A stretch of DNA of 23,811 nucleotides from IMG/VR virus record IMGVR_UViG_3300045733_000118, positions 1 through 23,811 of that record; one strand, given 5' to 3'. Below the pieces are notes generated by a model. That model ran no database searches, was not told the DNA's origin, and saw only the letters and a program-made list of their open reading frames with translations. The DNA comes from a virus. Shown one piece after another: positions 1 through 18,714 of this stretch (position 1 is its first letter; the number at the start of each line of letters is the position of its first letter). Both the position numbers and the translations under genes were made by a program.

Positions 1-620
1 TGACGGAAGCACAAAAGCAACTGGAGGAAATGACTCCTCAGAAAGAACGAGTTGAAGAATTCCAATTTGTAAAGGAATCCAATGATGATTTTGAAAAAGC
101 CCGGTGGGATAAAGATCGTCTGGCGGAAGTCGTGGAGAGCATTGGTGCCAATAAGGCAGAACGTCTTGCCCGAAAAGCTGGAGAAGTGGACGACCTTTTC
201 CTTTTGGCTAAGGAAGCGATTCGACTGGTTCGCGAGGAAGGTGCGTTGGTTACTTTGGTGGATTCGATTTCCGCGCAAATGAGGAAAGCGCAAGTGCCTC
301 CTTCTTTTGTTCCCGTGTCAGTGGCATGGACTACGATGATGAATCAGTCAGATGCCTTGGAGGATCTGAAGGGACTGATTAACCAGATGGGGAAGTGCCT
401 TGTCTATTTCCCACCCGATTTCAGTGAAGTGTCGCGTGCGCGGGATACAAAGGTAGATGCCGCTTCGGACTATACAGAATTTAGTGGACTAATTGGATCC
501 ATCGAAAGAGCAACAGTCAGAATGCAAACGGCGTCCTCCTTACTCAGAACAATGGAGAGGCGATTTCACGACCAGATCAAGAACACCATCTGCCCCCTAT
601 GCCAACAAGCCATCCTATAG
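1..620 (+). CDS. Rad50/SbcC-like ATPase, N-terminal half ending at zinc hook (5' partial)
   Basis: The frame is open from base 3, so the gene enters from the left and its N-terminus (where a Walker A motif would lie) is not visible. The roughly 205 visible residues are charged, helix-rich and coiled-coil-like. The last residues are TICPLCQQAIL, a CxxC motif of the Rad50/SbcC zinc-hook type (Cys codons at 591-593 and 600-602), and the stop follows only five residues after the second Cys. In ordinary Rad50 the chain turns at the hook and returns to a C-terminal ATPase lobe. Here that return arm is absent and a matching C-terminal lobe is encoded at 2316-2888. The inferred role is the coiled-coil arm and dimerising hook of a phage Mre11-Rad50 complex. 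The next gene, an Mre11-like nuclease, starts inside this one. The family call rests on hook plus context; the ATPase part is unseen. Confidence 0.7.
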   Translation, partial: TEAQKQLEEMTPQKERVEEFQFVKESNDDFEKARWDKDRLAEVVESIGANKAERLARKAGEVDDLFLLAKEAIRLVREEGALVTLVDSISAQMRKAQVPPSFVPVSVAWTTMMNQSDALEDLKGLINQMGKCLVYFPPDFSEVSRARDTKVDAASDYTEFSGLIGSIERATVRMQTASSLLRTMERRFHDQIKNTICPLCQQAIL

Positions 621-1495
621 CCATCGCTTGTGCGGACCTTCACTTGTCTCTGCTCCAGCCTGTGTGTCGGGCGGATGCAAATTGGCTCTCTGTCCAGGCC
701 CACTACCTTGACCAGTTGAAGGATATTGCTGGAGATTTACCTATCCTTTGCAGCGGTGACATCTTCGATAGGTGGAATGCCCCTCCAGAACTGATCAATT
801 TTGTTCTGAAGAATTTGCCAGACAACATGCTCTGCATCCCCGGTCAGCATGACCTTCCGAATCACTTGATGGACCAAAAGCATCGTTCTGGTTATGGTGT
901 GTTGGTTCAAGCTGGGAAAATTGTGGATCTTTCCGCATGCACATTCTGGAATGACACTGATTTCCAAGTTCAAGGATTTGGTTGGGACGTTTCAATCGCT
1001 CCCCCAATCCCGTCTGATTCAATCCGAATCGCGGCCATCCACCGTTATTGTTGGACGAAAGGCCACAAGTATCCTGATGCGCCAGAGTCTGCCAACGTGT
1101 CCAATCTGGAAAAGGAATTGCAAGGGTATGACATTGCCGTAGTCGGGGACAACCATAAGGGCTTCTTATCCAGATCCGGCAAATGTATTGTTTGCAACGT
1201 GGGCGGATTCATTCGCAGGAAGTCCGATGAAATCGACTACGCTCCTTCCGTTGGTGTCATCTACTCAGACGGATCCGTAGTGAGGAAGCCGCTGGACACG
1301 TCCATTGACAAGTTCCACGACATCGAAGAACAACGAGAAGAGGTTCCGTTGAATCTAAAGGAATTCATTGATAAGTTGGAAGGATTGGGCGAGCACGGAT
1401 TGAACTTTCGTGAAGCGGTAGAGAACCATTTGCGAACTGAGGACATCAGCCCCGCCACGAAACAGATCATCTTGAAAGCACTGGAGACAACATGA
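599..1495 (+). CDS. Mre11/SbcD-like metallophosphoesterase (DNA repair exonuclease)
   Basis: A 298-aa calcineurin-like phosphoesterase with the motifs in order: DLH (residues 13-15), GDIFDRW (53-59), GQHD (82-85), an HRY segment (His148) and GDNH (183-186). This is the layout of the Mre11/SbcD/T4 gp47 nuclease, which processes DNA ends with a Rad50-type ATPase. Two positions depart from the textbook motifs: GNHD is GQHD and GHxH is GDNH, so metal coordination may differ from classical Mre11. The protein is short and lacks a long C-terminal extension. Its ATG overlaps the second hook-Cys codon of the preceding gene (22-bp overlap), which indicates translational coupling with its Rad50 partner. 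Its stop overlaps the start of the following gene as ATGA. Confidence 0.85.
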   Translation: MPTSHPIAIACADLHLSLLQPVCRADANWLSVQAHYLDQLKDIAGDLPILCSGDIFDRWNAPPELINFVLKNLPDNMLCIPGQHDLPNHLMDQKHRSGYGVLVQAGKIVDLSACTFWNDTDFQVQGFGWDVSIAPPIPSDSIRIAAIHRYCWTKGHKYPDAPESANVSNLEKELQGYDIAVVGDNHKGFLSRSGKCIVCNVGGFIRRKSDEIDYAPSVGVIYSDGSVVRKPLDTSIDKFHDIEEQREEVPLNLKEFIDKLEGLGEHGLNFREAVENHLRTEDISPATKQIILKALETT

Positions 1496-1875
1496 CACCT
1501 GAACAAAAATCGGTCCTTGAATTCCACAAAGCATTTGGACTCACCATCAACACCAGTCCCACTTGCCCCATCCCAGCGGATCGTCTGTTGCGTGAAAAGC
1601 TGATCCTGGAGGAGTTGAGGGAACTGACCGAAGCCGCAACCATCGTTGACGTGGCAGACGCACTTGGGGATCTGCTCTACGTTGTCCTTGGTGCGGCCGT
1701 CACCTACGGAATCGACTTGGAGCCAGTTTTCAAAGAAATCCACCGTTCCAACATGACGAAACTTTGGAATGGAATCGAGGTGAAGAAGAACGCGGATGGG
1801 AAAGTGATCAAGCCACCAACCTACTCACTCGCGAACGTCAAAGCTGAAATACTCCGACAAGCTGGAAAGAAGTAA
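1492..1875 (+). CDS. MazG/PRA-PH-like nucleotide pyrophosphohydrolase
   Basis: A 127-aa all-alpha protein with the metal-binding signature of the MazG/HisE (PRA-PH) superfamily: EExxE at residues 40-44 followed by DVADALGD (53-60). The tail segment with HRSNMTKLW and GKVIKPP is typical of the phage PRA-PH-like subfamily. Such enzymes hydrolyse (d)NTPs to NMP plus pyrophosphate, and in phages they are proposed to clean modified nucleotides or adjust nucleotide or alarmone pools. The specific substrate cannot be told from sequence. The start is fixed by an ATGA overlap with the nuclease gene and a GGAG at 1483-1486, five bases upstream of the ATG. It sits between the pieces of the Rad50/Mre11 system. 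Confidence 0.85.
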   Translation: MTPEQKSVLEFHKAFGLTINTSPTCPIPADRLLREKLILEELRELTEAATIVDVADALGDLLYVVLGAAVTYGIDLEPVFKEIHRSNMTKLWNGIEVKKNADGKVIKPPTYSLANVKAEILRQAGKK

Positions 1876-1907
1876 ACGAATTCACCTACAACCGGGGATA
1901 ACAAGAT

Positions 1908-2081
1908 ATGAAGAAACCGAAATTCAAAGTCACAATCACTTTCACGCTTAACCCTCTTGATTATTGCGATGTCCGGGCCACCAAGACTAGTGTGAAGGAG
2001 ATGACCAAAGCCATGTTGAAACATGAGGCGGACATGCCCAGAAATCGTCAAATCAAAGTGGAGGACATCACCAATGGCTGA
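1908..2081 (+). CDS. Small hypothetical protein (57 aa)
   Basis: A short reading frame filling the gap between the pyrophosphohydrolase and the coiled-coil gene. It starts at ATG 1908 after a 32-base spacer and ends with TGA at 2079-2081, overlapping the next start (ATG at 2074). The product is basic at its N-terminus (MKKPKFKVTITFTLNP), suggesting a beta strand, and ends in a charged helical segment. No domain is recognised. The tight fit and stop/start overlap support it as a real gene. Its start ends in AAGATATG, like several late-gene leaders in this window. Confidence 0.6.
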   Translation: MKKPKFKVTITFTLNPLDYCDVRATKTSVKEMTKAMLKHEADMPRNRQIKVEDITNG

Positions 2082-2319
2082 GATTACTGAGCAAGCATTC
2101 CGACAACTCAAACGGGAAGTCGAAGACGCCAAAGCGGAAGCGGATAGGGCACAAGGGGCGTTGGATCAACTCCTTGTCCGCCTCAAGGAAGAGTTTGAAT
2201 GTGACAGTTTGAAGGATGCCAAAACCCTTCTCACTGAGCTCCATGCCAAGATGGAGAAGGCCCAGTCTGAGTTTGACAAAGCATTCCGCGATTACCAAAC
2301 CAAGTGGCATCCCCAATGA
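2074..2319 (+). CDS. Coiled-coil protein, possible detached Rad50 arm (81 aa)
   Basis: Almost entirely charged heptad-like helix (for example QLKREVEDAKAEADRAQ and LHAKMEKAQSEFDKAF), predicted coiled coil with a break around residues 42-50. I chose ATG 2074 because a GGAGG at 2060-2064 precedes it by nine bases and it overlaps the upstream stop; a longer reading from 2023 lies inside the previous gene. The stop overlaps the next ATG as ATGA (2316-2319). Lying directly before the C-terminal Rad50-like ATPase lobe and one frame away from it, it may be part of the missing returning coiled-coil arm made as a separate chain. Its composition also fits many unrelated small coiled-coil proteins. Confidence 0.75.
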   Translation: MAEITEQAFRQLKREVEDAKAEADRAQGALDQLLVRLKEEFECDSLKDAKTLLTELHAKMEKAQSEFDKAFRDYQTKWHPQ

Positions 2320-2888
2320 TCGACCTTGAACAAGAGGCAGAAGAGGTTGGGAAGATCCTCGCCAAGATTGACCATCTGGAGAGGACCGTCACCACTGAGG
2401 CCGGCGAGGTTTCCAAAGTGACGGAGCGATTGAAGCGGACCCAAGACGCACAAGAGGTCCTTCAGCTCCTTGCCCAGGCGGTCCAGCAACAGGCACACCA
2501 ACGGATTTCCGCCGTCGTCTCCTCCTGCCTGTCCGCCGTGTTTGGTGAGGGTGCTTACACGTTCAAGATTGAGTTTGAGCGGAAGCGGGGCAAGACAGAA
2601 GCCAGCTTGCGCTTCGTTCGTGGTGATTTGGACATAGACCCACTGACTGCAAGTGGGGGCGGTGCGATAGATGTGGCGGCTTTTTCACTGAGAGTTGCTT
2701 GCCTCGTTCTCCACCGTCCTCGCCTGAGCCGGGTTGTGGTCCTTGACGAGCCGTTCCGTTACGTAAGTGCAGAATATCAGGACAATGTGCGTGGGATGCT
2801 GGAGGGGCTGGCGAAGGACATGGGGATTCAAGTGATCATGGTCACACATCAAGAAGTCTATGAAACTGGGGAGATTATCAATTTGTGA
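2316..2888 (+). CDS. Rad50/SbcC-like ATPase, C-terminal half
   Basis: A 190-aa protein with a short N-terminal coiled coil (about residues 1-65) followed by the C-terminal lobe of an SMC/Rad50-type ABC ATPase. It has an ABC-signature region LTASGGG (110-116) leading into a helix, Walker B RVVVLDEPF (about 139-147) with the catalytic Glu145, and the H-loop IMVTHQ (His178). There is no Walker A, which must come from another chain, presumably the gene running in from the left edge. The start chosen is ATG 2316, whose ATGA overlaps the upstream stop; a GTG at 2304 is possible. With the Mre11-like nuclease it would form an end-processing complex encoded as a split Rad50. Confidence 0.85.
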   Translation: MIDLEQEAEEVGKILAKIDHLERTVTTEAGEVSKVTERLKRTQDAQEVLQLLAQAVQQQAHQRISAVVSSCLSAVFGEGAYTFKIEFERKRGKTEASLRFVRGDLDIDPLTASGGGAIDVAAFSLRVACLVLHRPRLSRVVVLDEPFRYVSAEYQDNVRGMLEGLAKDMGIQVIMVTHQEVYETGEIINL

Positions 2889-7991: not shown

Positions 7992-10271
7992 TTAGTTGAT
8001 TGTCCAGGCCCCGGTCCATCCCGCCCCACCATTCATGGCATCAGCGGTCGTCGCATCGGAGTCATCTGCGTATGATTCAAAATCGTCCAGGAGGTTGTCT
8101 GTCCCAAAGACCCACGGTCCTGACGCCCACGCCTCTCCTCCTTCTAGGGTTACCGCAGTGGCATCAGCCGTATCAGTGTAGGAAAGAAAATCATCCCCTC
8201 CGGCCACGATGGGAGGGAAGATCCATGAAAGTTGGAACCCAAAATCATTTGTTGCCCAACCAGTCCCTAGATTCATTGAGCCGTCAATAGGAGCCACCGC
8301 CGCGTCCGCGTATGATTCAAAATCATCTTGGCAGCCCACCCCATCAATGAAAATCCACGCTCCCACCCAACCATATCCCCCGGAATAGTCATCGCCCACC
8401 CAACCCGTGTCAACCAAGTAGTCCCAGCCATCCACGCTTGCGCCCTGTTGGAACACCCAAGCCCCTATCCATCCCGTGCCTGATACCATTGTCAGTGATG
8501 AAGTGTCAGACGAATCATCGTAACCCTCAAAGTCGTCGCCGTCAACAGGGGGAGCTGCCGGAGGAGCAGGAGGAGATCCTACGATAGGAAGGGTTCCGAA
8601 TTCATTAACGATGGAAAGGAGATAGTCCCATTGGGAGTATTGACGAAACAGAGATGCGTCTATGTTACAAGGGTGTTCATTTCCAACGGTGATGCAAAAG
8701 ACAGAACTGACAACCTCTGCGGCATGGAACGCCCCGCCTGGACCACAAAGCCCCCCTCCCATCGTTGCCACCATCTTGAATCTATAGACCAAGGGAATCT
8801 CTGAATTGGATCCATCTATTCTTGCGTCCAGATCGAATCGAGTAAAGACTACCGGAACCCCGCAGGCCTGTTCAACATATTCACAAACCAATGGAACATT
8901 ATCCCAATGAGGATGGCGTGCGATGGGATCAAGTTCTGTTGGGCGGAAACGTGTGGCGGTGACTCGATAGGATTCCCACCCCAAGTAATCCGGAGGCATG
9001 TAATCCTCCTGGGTGTTCTGATACACGATCCAATGAGAGCTACTGAGAGCACGGAAGGTGTTAGAGCAAGCCACCGCTTTGATATTGGATTTGAAGTTGA
9101 GCTGTCCACCGTAAATATGTTCGCAATCCGCACCAGACCAATGAATCCCCTGGGGCAGATCACAGGATCCATATACGGAAGATCCTGGACCCGTTGGCGC
9201 GACAGGGATGATCACAGACAGCATGGCGAACCGCTTGTCTATTGCAATGACTGCAATGGGGCTTGTGCATCCTCCTGAGAAGCATCGAATCTTGACAACC
9301 ATTCCGAAATCATCGCGTCCACAAGCCAAATCGTTCACTTCTCGAAAGACGGGAAGAAAAGTATCAATATCAGGATCAGATCCATCCCGAGTCCATTTCC
9401 ATTCCGATCCAGGCGGAGCACTATTCAAGGACACCACTTGAGAAGATGGAGAAGAAGCGTCGTTCCATTCGAGTCTTTCAAGGGGCTCGATATACATATC
9501 ATCTACGGAGATGAGCATGTTCTCATTTCTAGACGCCGGTTCGTAAATTCCGTCACCGATATTAATGACCCTCCGATCTCTCACCGCAGACAAACCACTA
9601 ATGGCCCAATCCGGTAACGGGACAGCACTTTCTGCGGGATGGACGGTGGTGGTGAATACGTTGCCTTCATAGTTCGAGGCTCGAAAGAAACGAGCTCCCC
9701 CAAACTGATTGTTGATCTTCACTGTCATCACACCCGCCGCCAGTTGAGCCCCCGTAGGAACGGCCTCAATATAATCATACCACGTGCCACCTTCGATACG
9801 AGTCTGAACGAACCCGGGGTGATCTCCAGTAAAGGCCCAACGAAGGGAAAAGTAGGTTCGACAACCACTGGGATCAGGAATAAGTGTTGGGTCACTTCCA
9901 TCGTAGGACCATAGCAGATTTTGCGGAGGGGGCGTTCCACTGTATGGAACGGTCACTTCCAACGTGGCCGTAACGGAAAAAAGATTGTCCGTGCGTGAAA
10001 AAGAATAAGTCGCCTGCCAGAAAGAAAGTGTCCCCACTTCCTCCCAATCAAACGTTAAAGATCCATTTACTAAAGTCTCGTTGAAGAACGTCCTGAAATC
10101 ATCAAACTGATCTTGTGTGAAGTTCCAAGATACATCCATCAAATCAATGGGTATCAAATGACTTCGACGTTTTCGGAGCCGTCCACTTTCCATCGTCACG
10201 CTTTCCGACCGGGAATTGCGAGTGCGCTTCCTTTCAATCAGTGGTAACGGAAGTTGTGTAGGCCAGACCAT
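7992..10271 (-). CDS. Modular minor tail protein with C-terminal DDFxxY/GW repeats (759 aa)
   Basis: Residues 1-110 resemble the whole of the adjacent 131-aa protein (WPxxxPLP start, VxW, FxxFxNxTLxNG, C-terminal TLEV), so the two share a domain. Two segments contain the DGSDP signature seen in chitobiase/beta-hexosaminidase C-terminal-like domains (WSYDGSDP about 121-128, WTRDGSDP about 293-300). Residues about 315-535 are Cys-rich for a phage protein. A Pro/Ala linker (566-578) leads to five imperfect repeats reaching the last residue (579-759). It is likely an exposed tail-tip component or adhesin whose repeats may bind a surface. The start lies one base after the previous stop. The family name is unknown to me; the tail role is from context. 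Confidence 0.75.
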   Translation of the reverse strand: MVWPTQLPLPLIERKRTRNSRSESVTMESGRLRKRRSHLIPIDLMDVSWNFTQDQFDDFRTFFNETLVNGSLTFDWEEVGTLSFWQATYSFSRTDNLFSVTATLEVTVPYSGTPPPQNLLWSYDGSDPTLIPDPSGCRTYFSLRWAFTGDHPGFVQTRIEGGTWYDYIEAVPTGAQLAAGVMTVKINNQFGGARFFRASNYEGNVFTTTVHPAESAVPLPDWAISGLSAVRDRRVINIGDGIYEPASRNENMLISVDDMYIEPLERLEWNDASSPSSQVVSLNSAPPGSEWKWTRDGSDPDIDTFLPVFREVNDLACGRDDFGMVVKIRCFSGGCTSPIAVIAIDKRFAMLSVIIPVAPTGPGSSVYGSCDLPQGIHWSGADCEHIYGGQLNFKSNIKAVACSNTFRALSSSHWIVYQNTQEDYMPPDYLGWESYRVTATRFRPTELDPIARHPHWDNVPLVCEYVEQACGVPVVFTRFDLDARIDGSNSEIPLVYRFKMVATMGGGLCGPGGAFHAAEVVSSVFCITVGNEHPCNIDASLFRQYSQWDYLLSIVNEFGTLPIVGSPPAPPAAPPVDGDDFEGYDDSSDTSSLTMVSGTGWIGAWVFQQGASVDGWDYLVDTGWVGDDYSGGYGWVGAWIFIDGVGCQDDFESYADAAVAPIDGSMNLGTGWATNDFGFQLSWIFPPIVAGGDDFLSYTDTADATAVTLEGGEAWASGPWVFGTDNLLDDFESYADDSDATTADAMNGGAGWTGAWTIN
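7995..8537 (-). repeat. Five imperfect protein repeats (DDFxxY ... GWxxxW)
   Basis: In-frame tandem units of about 30-45 residues at the C-terminus of the 759-aa tail protein. Unit openings are DDFEGYDD (residue 579), WDYLVDTGW (616, degenerate), DDFESYAD (649), DDFLSYTD (693) and DDFESYAD (729). Closings follow the pattern GxGWxGAWxF. Some DNA identity remains between units, for example GTATGATTCAAAATC occurs in both the last and third unit, so duplication was probably recent for those. Confidence 0.8.
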
Positions 10272-10272
10272 A

Positions 10273-10668
10273 TCAGGATGCAGCGTCAGAAATTGTTGTT
10301 TGTCTAACTAGATCCAACTTGGACTCAACTGTTGCCACGCCATCCGTGTAAGACACACCGTAAGTATCCACGAAACGAACCATCCATTCCGTCAACTGGG
10401 AATTCTTGGGGAATCGTAGATCAATCGAAAAACAAGACGTTCCATTCCCCAACGTGTCATTATAGAACGTTTCAAACAAAACCAACTCAGCCGCAGTGAG
10501 AACCCATTGAACCGAAAGTGTTCCGTAAGACGTGCCAAATCGGGAACGCTGTTCAATACGTGGACTTTCGATAGTAGAAGAGATCGTAGCGTTTCTAGGA
10601 CTCCCGGAGAAATCCAGAAATGGAAGTGGAATCGTTTCAGGCCATGCAATGTCCACGGTGATTGTCAT
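10273..10668 (-). CDS. Minor tail protein (131 aa), paralogue of the next gene's N-terminus
   Basis: Lies directly after the tape measure with an ATGA stop/start overlap, in the position of lambda M. The sequence has WPETIPLPF near the start, an Arg-rich segment (SPRIEQRSRF), VQWVLT, then LFETFYNDTLGNG and a beta-rich C-terminus. The same pattern opens the following 759-aa protein, so this gene and that domain look like products of a duplication. Proteins of this pattern are common after tape-measure genes in siphoviruses and probably belong to the distal tail ring or tip. No enzymatic motif is seen. Confidence 0.75.
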   Translation of the reverse strand: MTITVDIAWPETIPLPFLDFSGSPRNATISSTIESPRIEQRSRFGTSYGTLSVQWVLTAAELVLFETFYNDTLGNGTSCFSIDLRFPKNSQLTEWMVRFVDTYGVSYTDGVATVESKLDLVRQTTISDAAS

Positions 10669-13600
10669 TGCTGACCTCTACGAAGATTGAAGCTCCCCTG
10701 TAGTGCTCGCGTGACGTTGCCACGTCCCTCACGAATCTCTGAACTAATTTCATCTTTGGCGCGACGGATCATCACCTGAATGACACGCTCGTTGCCTTCC
10801 TGCCGTTCCGTAACTTCCGGACGTGCATCCGTGTAGTTGTTAATCACAACTCGCGTGGATTGTCCCCTTCCCATCAAAACGTCATTCGACAAGATAGTTC
10901 CATTTTGTGATGGAACAAATGCTTCCTGTCCACGCTCGCCAACAAGGTAAGCCCTTCCTTGGGACACCGGACCACCCATTGCTTTCTCGCCGGCAAACGC
11001 CAGACGAGTCGCCATGATGTTAGTGACAATGCTTGCCGTCTGAGTTGCCACTTCCGCCATCGCCGCAAGATTGGCTGGGAAAGGAAGTCCGGAAGCTGCC
11101 TTGGAAAGTGCAACCCCGATGTTGACCATGGCCACACCAATAGCGAACGCCTTCTCAACCGCGAACATGGCCTTGTAAGCCGCAGACTGTTTACCGCCAA
11201 AAGACTCAGCCATGGAAGCGAAAGCGGTGAACATCTGTTCTCCACTGGAAAGAGCCATCTTGACCTTTTGCGTCTCAACTAACGCAATCCGTTTAGTATA
11301 ATTATCAATGATCCCCATTATTTGCTTCTGACTCTCCTCCGTAAGATCCTTCTTCGTTTTGAGAAGCCCCTCATACCTAGCAATTTGGTTTTTGTAGTTG
11401 GCTTCCTCTTTGTTCGCCTGCAAAGCCTGATCTACCTCACTGGAAATCATCCCCATCGCCGGATGGTCCAATGCCGGAAGTTTTGATTCCTCCTGGAGTT
11501 TCTTAATCAATTTGGCGGCGCTTAACTTCGCTTCAATGTCCGCCAAAAGTGGAGTCCCCTCGATGTTCGGGTTTTCTCGAATGATCCTATTCAGATCAAT
11601 GATGTGCTTCTCCGACTCCTCGATGTCCTCCAGCTTTTTGAAATATGAATCCAGTTCCGGGAAAAGATTGGAAGTTTTCAACTGCCCATACACACCCTTC
11701 TTTGAAAGGCTCAAAGCATCCAGTTCCTTTTGTGCTTTTTCCACCGCCGCGTAAACTTCAATCGCCCGGGCTTTCGCATCGTCCACAGCAATTTTCGTCA
11801 CCTTATCTTCCATCTTGGCATACTCAGTCAGGTAAGTAGATCCATATACTTCAGCAAACTTCACAGCGGCATTGTGAGCATCCATCGCGGACGGTGGAGC
11901 AAGCGCCGGTTGGCCTGCACCCGCCTTCTTCCACAACCCACCAGGAAAATACTTGTCAGCAAGATCAGATAGATCCTTCCAGTATTTTTGGATGTCCAGT
12001 TTGTCGAAAGCGATTTGCTCCTTGATGCCGGCAGATGCCTCCTTCATGCCGGTGCGAATGTCTTTCCCAGATGAAGTGAAAAAGTTTCGTTGGGCAACGT
12101 GAGCGCCCGCCCACAATTTGACAAGCTCCTCATACAAAGAAAAAGTGGCATCCGACTTTCCACTACCAAACTGCATATCCCAAAAAGATTTCCTAAAATC
12201 ATTTACCTTGCTGATTACCGTCTCCACCCTTGTCAGTTCTGTAGATAGATCCTTCACCAACTTGATCGCATTTTCAAACAACTTGATAGTTGTCTTCAGC
12301 CAAGCAGTCGCCCCAATAAACGTCTCAATCAATGCCCCAGAGATGGAAGAGGCGAGTGTATCCAAAATCGTTTTGAATGCTACCGCACCCAAGGCGGCGG
12401 CTTTGAACATATCTGCCAATGTCGTAAACGTTGCGGAGACTTGTCCGGCTTGTGTTTCTGCTTTCCCTAAAGACTCAGTAACCCCCAACAACCAATCATT
12501 CAAATCTTTGAGAACTGGAGTTAAGGATTGCCCAATAACGATAAATAGATCCTTAACGTTGTTCCAAGTAACAGCCAGTTTGTTGATAAGGGAATCCAGT
12601 CGCTCTTTTGCCATTGTCTCCGTAACACCCCCGGCACTCAGCAATGCCTTCTCAAAATCTTTGATCTTCTCGGATGCTCCCAGCATGGTGAGCATCGCCT
12701 TCATAGATCGTTCTTGCAAACCGGAAATACTGAGAGCCAAACGACGTGTTTCGTCAGGAAGAGGCCGAAGCAGTTTCTCAAATTGAGTAAAGATGACACC
12801 CACATTGTTCATCTTCTTCGTGATGGGATCAAACACGTCAATCCCGAACAACTCTGTCCAGACTTTCTTGTTCTCAATGGCAACACGCGAAATGTCACGC
12901 ATGGCCATGAACATGTGCTCACCCCCCGATGCGCCACGATCCCCCGCCTCTGCAAAAGCTGCCAAAAGAGCCACACCTTCTTCAAGACTCTTGTTCATCA
13001 CCCGAATAGCTTGAGCACCGCCATGTGTCAACGCTTCACCAAACTCCTCAACAGATCCCTGACCCAACCGATTTGCCTCAGTCAAAACATCAGCAATCCG
13101 CGTCATGCTGACAAGATCCTTGGAAGCGTCTCCCGTCTTCAATCCAAGTGACCCCATGGAATCAATCAGCATGGACGTGGCTTTTTCCAACTTCAAGTTA
13201 CCAGCGATTGCGAATGTATCTACAATCGGAAGGAGCTTAATGGAGGCGATAGCGTCGTAGTTCGCGGACGCCAAAAGATTGTAAGCCTTAGTGAGTTCAA
13301 CAGCGGAATTGAGGCTTTGCTTTCCAATCGTGCGAGCGGTCAATTCCAATTCAGCCCGCAACTCTTTCGTCACCCCTCCCATGACTGCGGTGGCACCAAC
13401 CATCCCCTGCTCAAACTTGGCGTATTCACGGAGCCCCAATGCCGCCGCCAACCCCAAACCAACACTACCCACCAAAGCCGTGGTGGACAGTCCCTTTATT
13501 GCGGTGCCAGCCACGATTGCCGCACTACTCGCATTTGTAGCAGCATTCGCCATCTGTGTAGAAGCGTTCATGTAAGCAACAGAAGTTGCCGCATGCCCCG

Positions 13601-13886
13601 CCGCCGCTGCCCCTCCCGCCGCCGCCAATGCCGCGTAATTTCTCGCCGCGTTCGCCAAAGACGCAGACATCAACAAAAGCTGTCTCTGTATCTTGGAAGT
13701 TGCCGCCGTGGTGGATGCCGCCATGCCCGCCATGCTGCCGGCCGTTGTCCTGTCCAGCATCGCGAAATCCTTCTGCATTCGCGTGGTGCCATAGATTACG
13801 GAACGAGTCGCGGAATCCATTCCACCAATCAAGCTGGAGGCATCCGCTGTTAGTCGGACGAAGAGGGTTCCGAGTCCGTAAGCCAT
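10665..13886 (-). CDS. Tail tape measure protein
   Basis: A 1073-aa tape measure, the longest gene here. The N-terminus is Ala-rich and helical with a hydrophobic stretch around residues 130-155. A TP901/PhageMin-type core follows (VELTKAYNLLASANYD, GQGSVEEFGEALTHGGAQA, ERLDSLINKLAVTWNN). A second hydrophobic region (about 900-960) precedes the common C-terminal motif GGPVSQGRAYLVGERGQEAFVP (about 971 on). In the tail it sets length and is ejected ahead of DNA. By the roughly 1.5 angstrom per residue rule from lambda-like phages this would give a tail near 160 nm (inference). The ATG at 13886 lies two bases after the stop of the frameshifted chaperone; a reading from 13922 would begin inside that gene. 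Confidence 0.93.
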   Translation of the reverse strand: MAYGLGTLFVRLTADASSLIGGMDSATRSVIYGTTRMQKDFAMLDRTTAGSMAGMAASTTAATSKIQRQLLLMSASLANAARNYAALAAAGGAAAAGHAATSVAYMNASTQMANAATNASSAAIVAGTAIKGLSTTALVGSVGLGLAAALGLREYAKFEQGMVGATAVMGGVTKELRAELELTARTIGKQSLNSAVELTKAYNLLASANYDAIASIKLLPIVDTFAIAGNLKLEKATSMLIDSMGSLGLKTGDASKDLVSMTRIADVLTEANRLGQGSVEEFGEALTHGGAQAIRVMNKSLEEGVALLAAFAEAGDRGASGGEHMFMAMRDISRVAIENKKVWTELFGIDVFDPITKKMNNVGVIFTQFEKLLRPLPDETRRLALSISGLQERSMKAMLTMLGASEKIKDFEKALLSAGGVTETMAKERLDSLINKLAVTWNNVKDLFIVIGQSLTPVLKDLNDWLLGVTESLGKAETQAGQVSATFTTLADMFKAAALGAVAFKTILDTLASSISGALIETFIGATAWLKTTIKLFENAIKLVKDLSTELTRVETVISKVNDFRKSFWDMQFGSGKSDATFSLYEELVKLWAGAHVAQRNFFTSSGKDIRTGMKEASAGIKEQIAFDKLDIQKYWKDLSDLADKYFPGGLWKKAGAGQPALAPPSAMDAHNAAVKFAEVYGSTYLTEYAKMEDKVTKIAVDDAKARAIEVYAAVEKAQKELDALSLSKKGVYGQLKTSNLFPELDSYFKKLEDIEESEKHIIDLNRIIRENPNIEGTPLLADIEAKLSAAKLIKKLQEESKLPALDHPAMGMISSEVDQALQANKEEANYKNQIARYEGLLKTKKDLTEESQKQIMGIIDNYTKRIALVETQKVKMALSSGEQMFTAFASMAESFGGKQSAAYKAMFAVEKAFAIGVAMVNIGVALSKAASGLPFPANLAAMAEVATQTASIVTNIMATRLAFAGEKAMGGPVSQGRAYLVGERGQEAFVPSQNGTILSNDVLMGRGQSTRVVINNYTDARPEVTERQEGNERVIQVMIRRAKDEISSEIREGRGNVTRALQGSFNLRRGQQ

Positions 13887-13888
13887 AA

Positions 13889-14562
13889 TCAGTTCAGGTT
13901 CAATTTCAACGCCGCAGCCCAACTCTGCTTTGACTTCTCCACCTTAGCCTTTTTGTCTGGTGAAACAAGCTCAATGAAAAAGTCAGAGATTTTGACCTTG
14001 CGAGGATTCTCCACGAAGCTCCTTCTCACCTCCGCCGCTATCTGTGCCAAATAATAATCCATCTTGGAATGACGCAATTCCTCCAGGTTGAGGAATTCGC
14101 ACCAGTCCAGGAATTCTGTGAAAGTGATCCTGCGCTTCAACTCACCAACAGGAACCTTCAGGTGGGAGGCGACTCTAAACCAATTCAGCCTCTCACCCGT
14201 CAACCGTTTTTTGCCGGTTCGTCTTTCTTCTCTTCGTTCAGGTGGTTGAGTTCCTGAGCAGATTCGTAGATTCCTCCAGCAACCGACGCCGGCCACTTCT
14301 GGACTTCCGCTTTCGTCACGGCTTTACCTTCTGAATCAAACACGCAAAGGGTGAGAAGATCCGCCTGCATCCCTTCAAACTTCTTGATGCCACAGGGCTT
14401 TCCCTCCGGACCGTAACGAACCCGATCCCCAAGCGTGTCCAGGTATTTTTCACGGGACGCGGAGGACATCTCGCGAAGTTCGTAGTTGACGGTCTTCCCA
14501 TCCACCGTGGTCAGGGTGATGGGAACGATTTCTGTGACAAGCGTGAATTGAAGGGGAGTCAT
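13889..14562 (-). CDS. Tail assembly chaperone, -1 frameshift fusion (lambda GT-like)
   Basis: Translation starts at ATG 14562, reads 119 codons in the G frame, slips back one base on A AAA AAC (14206-14212) and continues for 105 codons to TGA at 13889, giving a protein of about 224 aa. The T-like part contains FLDWCEFLNLEELR and MDYYLAQIAAEVRR, like the DUF4035/T-type chaperone domain. The open frame containing it (13889-14296) has no convincing start of its own, and its first part only shadows G. In lambda the G/GT ratio controls loading of tube protein on the tape measure. Position between tube protein and tape measure fits exactly. Confidence 0.88.
14159..14212 (-). promoter_or_regulatory. 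Programmed -1 ribosomal frameshift element
   Basis: On the minus strand: slippery heptamer A AAA AAC in the correct phase for the G frame (14206-14212), spacer GGTTGA (14200-14205, which contains the zero-frame stop), then a stem of CGGGTGAGAGGC (14188-14199) against GCCTCCCACCTG (14159-14170). That is 10 Watson-Crick pairs, one G-U pair and one A-C mismatch, with a 17-base loop. Slippery site, six-base spacer and stem are the three standard parts of a -1 frameshift signal. Confidence 0.88.
14200..14562 (-). CDS. Tail assembly chaperone, unshifted product (lambda G-like)
   Basis: A 120-aa protein from the same start as the fusion, ending at the TGA two codons after the slippery site (…EPAKNG). 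Its beta-rich N-terminus (FTLVTEIVPITLTTVDGK) and charged tail (LNHLNEEKKDEP) fit a G-like tail chaperone. It lies between tube protein and tape measure, as in lambda. It is expected to be the abundant form, with a minority of ribosomes making the fusion. Confidence 0.88.
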   Translation of the reverse strand: MTPLQFTLVTEIVPITLTTVDGKTVNYELREMSSASREKYLDTLGDRVRYGPEGKPCGIKKFEGMQADLLTLCVFDSEGKAVTKAEVQKWPASVAGGIYESAQELNHLNEEKKDEPAKNG

Positions 14563-14600: not shown

Positions 14601-15053
14601 TCAGGTGAGGGAGCCCGGTTCAATGTAGTTCGGTTCCGTCTCCACGCCGTTGTTATCCCGGTTGGAGGGCTGGACCTTGAGCGCGGCCGTGGGCTGTTCA
14701 CCTTCCTTGAAACTTCCGGGCGTGAATTCTTCAAGCCATCCGTAGAACTCGATGGAAGAGCCATCCGGGAAGGTGACAGTGACAAGCTGGTTGACCGCGA
14801 TTTGTGCCATGATTGCGTCAATGGCATCCGTGGCGAAGGCCACCGTGGCGGAAACGCCCGTGAGACTCTTCAGTTGACGCGGGGACATCGTGCGCCATGC
14901 CGTGTTCCGCATGGTCGTGGTGTCGATGGGGCCACCGGAGGTAATCCCGGGAGGAGTGACTTCCTTCTCAAAGATTTTGATGGTGGGGATGTTGGCGAAG
15001 GTAATGATGGTTGAAAAACCATCATCAAGGCGAAGTGTGTTGGCGGCTGGCAT
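14601..15053 (-). CDS. Major tail tube protein
   Basis: A 150-aa protein with a tail-tube-like layout: IPTIKIFEKEVTPPGI near the N-terminus, an SPRQLKSLTGVSATVAF segment, then VTVTFPDGSSIEFYGWLEEF and a C-terminal strand with AALKVQPSN. Position just upstream of the G/GT pair and downstream of the tail terminator matches the tube protein of lambda-like phages (V), though it is shorter than lambda V and lacks an Ig-like extension. Hexamers would stack to form the tail tube. The leader is A/C-rich with only a weak AGAAAG and ends GATATG. A 9-bp hairpin lies in codons 10-17. Confidence 0.85.
   Translation of the reverse strand: MPAANTLRLDDGFSTIITFANIPTIKIFEKEVTPPGITSGGPIDTTTMRNTAWRTMSPRQLKSLTGVSATVAFATDAIDAIMAQIAVNQLVTVTFPDGSSIEFYGWLEEFTPGSFKEGEQPTAALKVQPSNRDNNGVETEPNYIEPGSLT
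15004..15025 (-). other. Hairpin within the 5' coding region of the tail tube gene
   Basis: Perfect 9-bp stem ATGATGGTT/AACCATCAT with a 4-base loop (UUUC in the mRNA), spanning codons 10-17 of the tail tube gene. The arms are partly forced by the amino acids, so it may be chance; if it forms, it could tune early elongation or mRNA stability. Confidence 0.45.
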
Positions 15054-17652: not shown

Positions 17653-18714
17653 TTACGCGGCGGGACGTGCGTGGACGATGCCGGTGTTACCGTTGAAGTC
17701 AGCGCGGATCTGGGGAACCATGATCGCCATGACCTTGAAGTTGATCCGCATGCCGCCTTCGGTTTCCCACTGAAGCGTGGTGATGTCCATGCCGGTGACG
17801 AGACGAATCACGTCACTGGTCTGCTGAACAAGGATCATTTGGAACCCGGTGAGGAGATCCACAGTCCGAATGGCGGTAATCCCGCTGATTGACTCAAGAC
17901 GCTGGCGGAGGGAATTGTCACCCTTCTCAGCCGAGTAGTCATCGTCCATATACTGATCCCATGCCGGCGAGACGTAGAGCACCCAAGGACCGTAATGGAA
18001 CTTGGCCACCGAGAGGGCTCGCATCGCCAGAATTTCAGCGAGCATCGTCTGAGGAGTCCATGCGGGATTCGTTGGCGGGGTGAGATCCGTCTTGGTGATG
18101 CGGTTCGGGAAGTTGGTCAACCCGTAAACCGATCCACCCGCGTAATTCACCGTGGGTCCGATGCCGAGCACCAGTTTCTCCGCTTCCTCCGCGACGCGGC
18201 GAGCGGCGAGTTGTGCCGTGGTGACATCAATCGAGGCCCCGCTGTTACGCGAGGTGGCGACCTGACGGGCGCTGAAGAAGAAGTCCTTGTGAATAACCGG
18301 CAGGGGGAGGCTGGTCAGGTCATACTCAGGACGATCCGCTTCACTCTTGCGAGCCGGATCCATGCTGACGATCGCCGCCGTGATGTCACTGACAGCTTCC
18401 GTTTCCAGGACCGTCTTGCCCATCCCGTTCGGGATGTTGAAGGTGAGGCCGGCCGAACGCAAGTCAGCGACGACGCGGAGGCGTTCCTTGGCAGCGGCGA
18501 TAACAGCGGTGTCCAGTTCCACCCATTCCTGCTTCAGGAGAGTAGCCGTGGCGTTCATGGTAGGAACCGCGATGCGTTTCCCCTCATGATTGCGAGTGAT
18601 GTAAGACCGGCCATCCTTGCCGATCCATGGGCGGAGAGCCGCCATGTCGAAACCGTTACTCAGAAGAGTCGAAGCGACGCGCCCCTGAGCCTGTCCGTTG
18701 AGAATGAATTCCAT
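17653..18714 (-). CDS. Major capsid protein, HK97-fold, encapsulin (Linocin-M18)-like
   Basis: A 353-aa protein following protease and cement genes, the expected place for the capsid. The central part resembles encapsulin/Linocin-M18-type HK97-fold proteins: SLPLPVIHKDFFFSARQVATS (about 135-155), then TTAQLAARRVAEEAEKLVLG (an E-rich spine-helix-like segment), YGLTNFPNRI, and an A-domain-like GPWVLYVSPAWDQYMDDDYS. Late segments (LTGFQMILVQQTSDVIRLVTG, MRINFKVMAIMVPQIR) also fit. Multiple copies would form the icosahedral shell. There is no obvious N-terminal delta domain, consistent with a separate scaffold. The leader lacks a Shine-Dalgarno and ends TCAATATG. The capsid call is strong; the exact subfamily is less certain. 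Confidence 0.88.
   Translation of the reverse strand: MEFILNGQAQGRVASTLLSNGFDMAALRPWIGKDGRSYITRNHEGKRIAVPTMNATATLLKQEWVELDTAVIAAAKERLRVVADLRSAGLTFNIPNGMGKTVLETEAVSDITAAIVSMDPARKSEADRPEYDLTSLPLPVIHKDFFFSARQVATSRNSGASIDVTTAQLAARRVAEEAEKLVLGIGPTVNYAGGSVYGLTNFPNRITKTDLTPPTNPAWTPQTMLAEILAMRALSVAKFHYGPWVLYVSPAWDQYMDDDYSAEKGDNSLRQRLESISGITAIRTVDLLTGFQMILVQQTSDVIRLVTGMDITTLQWETEGGMRINFKVMAIMVPQIRADFNGNTGIVHARPAA

Follow-up and report, generated by a model that had tools for sequence, protein, structure and literature searches.

Conserved slippery heptamer and hairpin suggest programmed −1 frameshifting between tail chaperone genes G and T in a lineage of uncultivated phages

We analyzed a 23,811-nt stretch of viral DNA, here called the window, and found on its minus strand a slippery heptamer followed by a hairpin at the end of tail assembly chaperone gene G. 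Judging from these sequence elements, G is very probably joined to a T extension by programmed −1 frameshifting, with A AAA AAC as the slip site and the hairpin as an aid. Relative to G, the heptamer (14212–14206) is phased X XXY YYZ, and it is the only AAAAAAC on either strand of the window. Downstream of it, a 6-nt spacer, GGTTGA (14200–14205), contains the zero-frame stop codon TGA, which ends at 14200, so that the end of G reads ...GAA CCG GCA AAA AAC GGT TGA CGGGTGAGAGGC TGAATTGGTTTAGAGTC GCCTCCCACCTG... on the minus strand. The 5′ arm of the hairpin (CGGGTGAGAGGC, 14199–14188) and its 3′ arm (GCCTCCCACCTG, 14170–14159) form a stem of 12 positions, 11 of them paired and one an A·C mismatch, around a 17-nt loop (TGAATTGGTTTAGAGTC, 14171–14187), to which the MFE structure adds a small inner extension. 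After a −1 slip past AAC, reading would continue with CGG TTG ACG GGT GAG AGG in a frame that is open to 13889. The predicted G-T fusion comprises 119 G residues and 105 T residues, 224 aa in all, with the junction EPAKN-RLTGER, as compared to 120 aa for G alone. An earlier note on this DNA had described the phase of the heptamer, the spacer with its stop codon, the dimensions of stem and loop, the slip into a T-like frame, the sizes of both products and the junction peptide, and our reading of the sequence agrees with it in every coordinate and number.

Protein families, the predicted fold of G and the gene order support the identification of G and T as tail chaperone genes. Gene G (14562–14200, minus strand, zero frame, 120 aa) matched the tail assembly chaperone family phrog_344 (E = 4.1e-6), and its AlphaFold model (pLDDT 88.7) adopts an HK97 chaperone fold, the best PDB match being the HK97 tail assembly chaperone itself (2ob9; probability 1.00, TM 0.48–0.58), with the phage-like YqbN (3klu) lower in the ranking of structure matches. 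The T open frame, of which the part read after the slip (13889–14206, minus strand; 105 codons plus stop) would form the T domain of the fusion, matched PF06223 (Phage_tail_T; 27.5 bits, cut-off 25.9) and the tail protein family phrog_337 (E = 2.6e-12) and is conserved in 80 viral loci; its structure model is of low confidence (pLDDT 64.7). The gene order in the window is tail tube candidate–G–T–tape measure, with T in the −1 frame and overlapping G. Directly downstream of T, the tape measure gene (10665–13922, minus strand) matched phrog_1538, other tape measure families and PF10145; its start codon is not fixed, with the ATG at 13886 as an alternative. Directly upstream of G, a 150-aa protein (14601–15053, minus strand) is a candidate major tail (tube) protein, named solely from its position in the gene order; Pfam and PHROG searches gave nothing for it at E 0.1. 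A similar open reading frame sits upstream of G in one relative (L002).

Elsewhere in the window, we noted a DUF6260-family major capsid protein (17653–18714, minus strand), whose best cultured match is from Brevundimonas phage StAshley (38%), and a 759-aa protein (7992–10271, minus strand) with several DDFESYAD...GWxxAW-like motif repeats in its C-terminal part. On the opposite strand at the left end (599–2888, plus strand), a metallophosphoesterase-like protein (599–1495) and a short SbcC-like ATPase (2304–2888) recall an SbcCD-type nuclease pair, as judged by eye from their translations.

Relatives of the window have kept a heptamer of the X XXY YYZ type, in phase, ahead of the G stop. A DNA pattern scan returned 13 contigs but selects for the heptamer and the 5′ arm; conservation was therefore measured on loci fetched with a T protein alignment (T core) that starts downstream of the hairpin and thus imposes no selection for the signal. 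This search yielded 81 loci, namely 80 viral loci and one from a genome collection (MAG, L135). A script, which as a control recovered the known lambda GGGAAAG site and the AAAAAAC of CcrSwift, found an in-phase heptamer in 79 of the 81. After deduplication, and with the window and a locus fetched by G (L004) included, there were 64 distinct junctions: 48 with AAAAAAC, 10 with GGGAAAC, five with AAAAAAA and one with AAAAAAG. Up to 60 nt from the G stop, AAAAAAC was in the slip phase in 48 out of 48 cases and never in the other two phases, as compared to a background rate of 0.0002 per position in the same loci. In most relatives the G stop lies 3 nt past the heptamer. The slip phase also codes for Lys-Lys-Arg in T, and conservation of the heptamer may therefore be partly at the protein level; slipperiness rather than Lys-Lys appears to be what is kept, because ten relatives switch to GGGAAAC (Gly-Lys). 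One locus (L078) failed the script's filter only because it is cut by the contig end, and AAAAAAC is present there. The pattern that the earlier note had set against its own reading, a destroyed heptamer with both frames intact, was sought in all 81 loci and had one clear example, L037, which is untruncated, has both frames open and carries no heptamer near the G stop (around 2440–2500 of that locus). Further upstream in L037 there is a C AAA AAC; the locus may contain a sequence error or use another mechanism.

In the window, the hairpin begins 6 nt past the heptamer, within the 5–9 nt expected of a hairpin-stimulated −1 signal. It is kept by compensatory changes and is stronger than the T protein demands, and is thus under RNA-level selection beyond the protein code. 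Folding against dinucleotide shuffles was uninformative, the 64-nt stretch taken alone being unremarkable (z = −1.2, 27/200), and was replaced by synonymous recoding calibrated on neighboring stretches, in which the T protein was held fixed and the codons were redrawn from each locus's own usage. By this measure, the window hairpin stood apart from the recoded T frames (z = −3.28, p = 0.003), and the relatives reached a mean z of −2.8, with 78% at p ≤ 0.05, compared to mean z values of −0.2 to −0.6 and 10–16% at p ≤ 0.05 for nine neighboring stretches of G and T. The recoding test therefore runs slightly low, yet the hairpin site stands out. L039, L058, L080 and L088 are among the relatives in which synonymous recoding gave no hairpin signal. 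Covariation was counted on 46 gapless aligned sequences, where the stem was paired in 79.5% of cells as opposed to 39–54% when slid by 1–3 columns, and where 43 double-change cells were observed versus 17.3 ± 4.2 in shuffles (0/500 as high). We give most weight to the slid control because the shuffles ignore the relatedness of the sequences. RNAalifold run on the divergent set returned a partial consensus, and the counts for the named structure were clearer. Of the evidence that the signal is no product of chance, the comparison across relatives is decisive. Conservation of heptamer and stem in related phages had been proposed beforehand as a check, and both turned out to be kept, as seen across the 64 junctions and in the recoding and covariation tests.

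We considered a dnaX-like three-part signal, consisting of a Shine–Dalgarno (SD)-like stretch, heptamer and hairpin, and rejected it for the window, where the SD-like stretch is missing: ∼10 nt upstream of the heptamer, the value was −2.9 kcal/mol, weaker than the synonymous null. The signal had previously been called complete, which applies to the heptamer, spacer and stem but not to this upstream element. Among relatives, an SD-like stretch upstream of the heptamer was enriched (77% versus 21%), and a null in which the acidic protein sequence was held fixed reached 58%, accounting for most of this enrichment. With the protein fixed, the family mean was −6.12 versus −5.23 ± 0.29 (1/200), a weak family-level signal of an SD-like stimulator that is absent in the window.

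The T frame could also be reached by other routes. Termination–reinitiation would produce T as a separate protein with no ribosome slip, and the stop codon is indeed overlapped by a TTG in the window (14203–14201, giving TTGA) and by an ATG in some relatives. However, just 13 of the 64 distinct junctions have ATG or TTG as the codon over the stop, the others having CTA, ATA, CTG, TTA or GTA, and many relatives have no ATG, GTG or TTG between the opening of the T frame and the T core (L004, L038, L039, L045, L051, L055, L057, L069, L072 and L074, among others), which argues for a frameshift. Because the T start codon is not conserved, and because reinitiation explains neither the in-phase XXXYYYZ nor the hairpin, we consider it extremely unlikely as the shared mechanism; in the window alone, reinitiation at TTGA is possible. 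Slippage of RNA polymerase rather than the ribosome on the A run would be another source of the T frame, given that the heptamer is A-rich and that one relative (L019) contains a run of eight A. Yet the run is only six A long in the window, ten of the 64 junctions carry GGGAAAC with just three, and polymerase slippage needs neither a strictly kept codon phase nor a covarying hairpin 6 nt downstream, leaving this explanation with practically negligible probability.

A further question is whether the heptamer alone matters, with the hairpin arising as a by-product of the conserved T protein (GERLxW...ASHL). The hairpin arms do code for conserved T residues, and lambda and CcrSwift manage without such a hairpin. 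Against this, synonymous recoding that preserves T destroys the hairpin in most relatives, and its pairs are maintained by compensatory changes, including in relatives with different arms (L036, L087), which makes a mere by-product very unlikely.

In the hairpin-helped −1 frameshift that we favor, most ribosomes would read G and stop at the TGA two codons past the slip site, releasing the 120-aa gpG. The hairpin would pause a minority of ribosomes with the Lys (AAA) and Asn (AAC) codons in the P and A sites, and these would re-pair one base back and enter the T frame, yielding the 224-aa gpG-T. If these proteins work as in lambda, gpG would coat the tape measure protein and gpG-T would recruit the tail tube protein, in which case the ratio of gpG to gpG-T would matter for tail assembly. 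The analysis demonstrates the layout of the signal, its conservation, selection on the hairpin as RNA and the identities of the genes; slippage, its efficiency, its stimulation by the hairpin and the role in assembly are what we infer here.

That tail chaperones undergo programmed −1 frameshifting is already textbook knowledge, and AAAAAAC at the junction has already been reported; the hairpin conserved across dozens of uncultivated relatives is a modest novelty, and the accepted picture of tail assembly is unchanged. What is gained is a slip site and hairpin with evolutionary support in phages that cannot be grown, and the missing G-T fusion can now be annotated in dozens of contigs. The junctions with AAAAAAC, GGGAAAC or AAAAAAA, with and without a hairpin, also form a natural series with which to study how phages adjust the proportions of their two tail chaperones. 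More broadly, we lean slightly toward the view that a wide lineage of uncultivated phages uses hairpin-assisted G-T frameshifting, in which the hairpin either makes up for AAAAAAC being a weak site with E. coli ribosomes or governs the ratio of the chaperones regardless of the heptamer, and that lambda and phiCbK-type phages manage without it.

Across long-tailed phages, frameshifting between G and T at a low level is widely conserved (PMC5009743), and frameshifted tail chaperones are, as the earlier note stated, well known in siphoviruses. AAAAAAC at the G-T junction has been reported for phiCbK relatives (PMC3556154) and for the haloarchaeal virus HCTV-2 (PMC5009743), and two chaperone genes of the HK97-like cluster gave 6–7% frameshifting in reporters (PMC3711429). 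A hairpin was judged likely to be relevant in one of the five phage clusters of a further study (PMC4066793). Ribosomes of E. coli shift far less readily on A_AAA_AAC than on A_AAA_AAG (PMC5009743, PMC4066793), so the efficiency at the site in the window would depend on its host.

The lambda G/G-T system resembles that of the window in its V-G-T-H order, the −1 direction, the slip at the end of G and the T domain as an extension (PMC5009743). It differs in its heptamer, GGGAAAG, a contrast already drawn in the earlier note and consistent with the site recovered by our script, in a stop codon 15 nt further on and in the absence of a hairpin signal (z = +0.59); a profile comparison of lambda G and T with G and T of the window returned nothing significant. 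The pre-tape-measure chaperones of phiCbK-type Caulobacter phages share A AAA AAC (PMC3556154), and in CcrSwift the stop directly follows AAAAAAC and the hairpin signal is absent (z = +0.48). Outside tail genes, the signals of E. coli dnaX and the IS3 family likewise combine an A-run heptamer with a downstream hairpin, but in unrelated genes and with A AAA AAG. The dnaX signal also has an upstream SD-like stretch (PMC3711429), which the window lacks and for which many of its relatives have a purine-rich equivalent that is largely due to acidic codons.

Among records of named phages, genes 18–21 of Streptomyces phage Yara follow the same order as in the window, with GGGAAAC and no hairpin; the heptamer (1498–1504 in L137) is in phase, with the G stop 36 nt further on, and would join genes 19 and 20, for which the record gives separate annotations. 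Moraxella phage Mcat13 (L138) encodes a distant T homologue (25%); its G stop follows 3 nt after a heptamer in the slip phase, and there is a strong hairpin (z = −4.25), but its heptamer is AAAAAAG and the two genes were deposited as separate, with no note of a frameshift. The site at 1480–1486 is likely to be an unannotated G-T frameshift in the record of a cultured phage.
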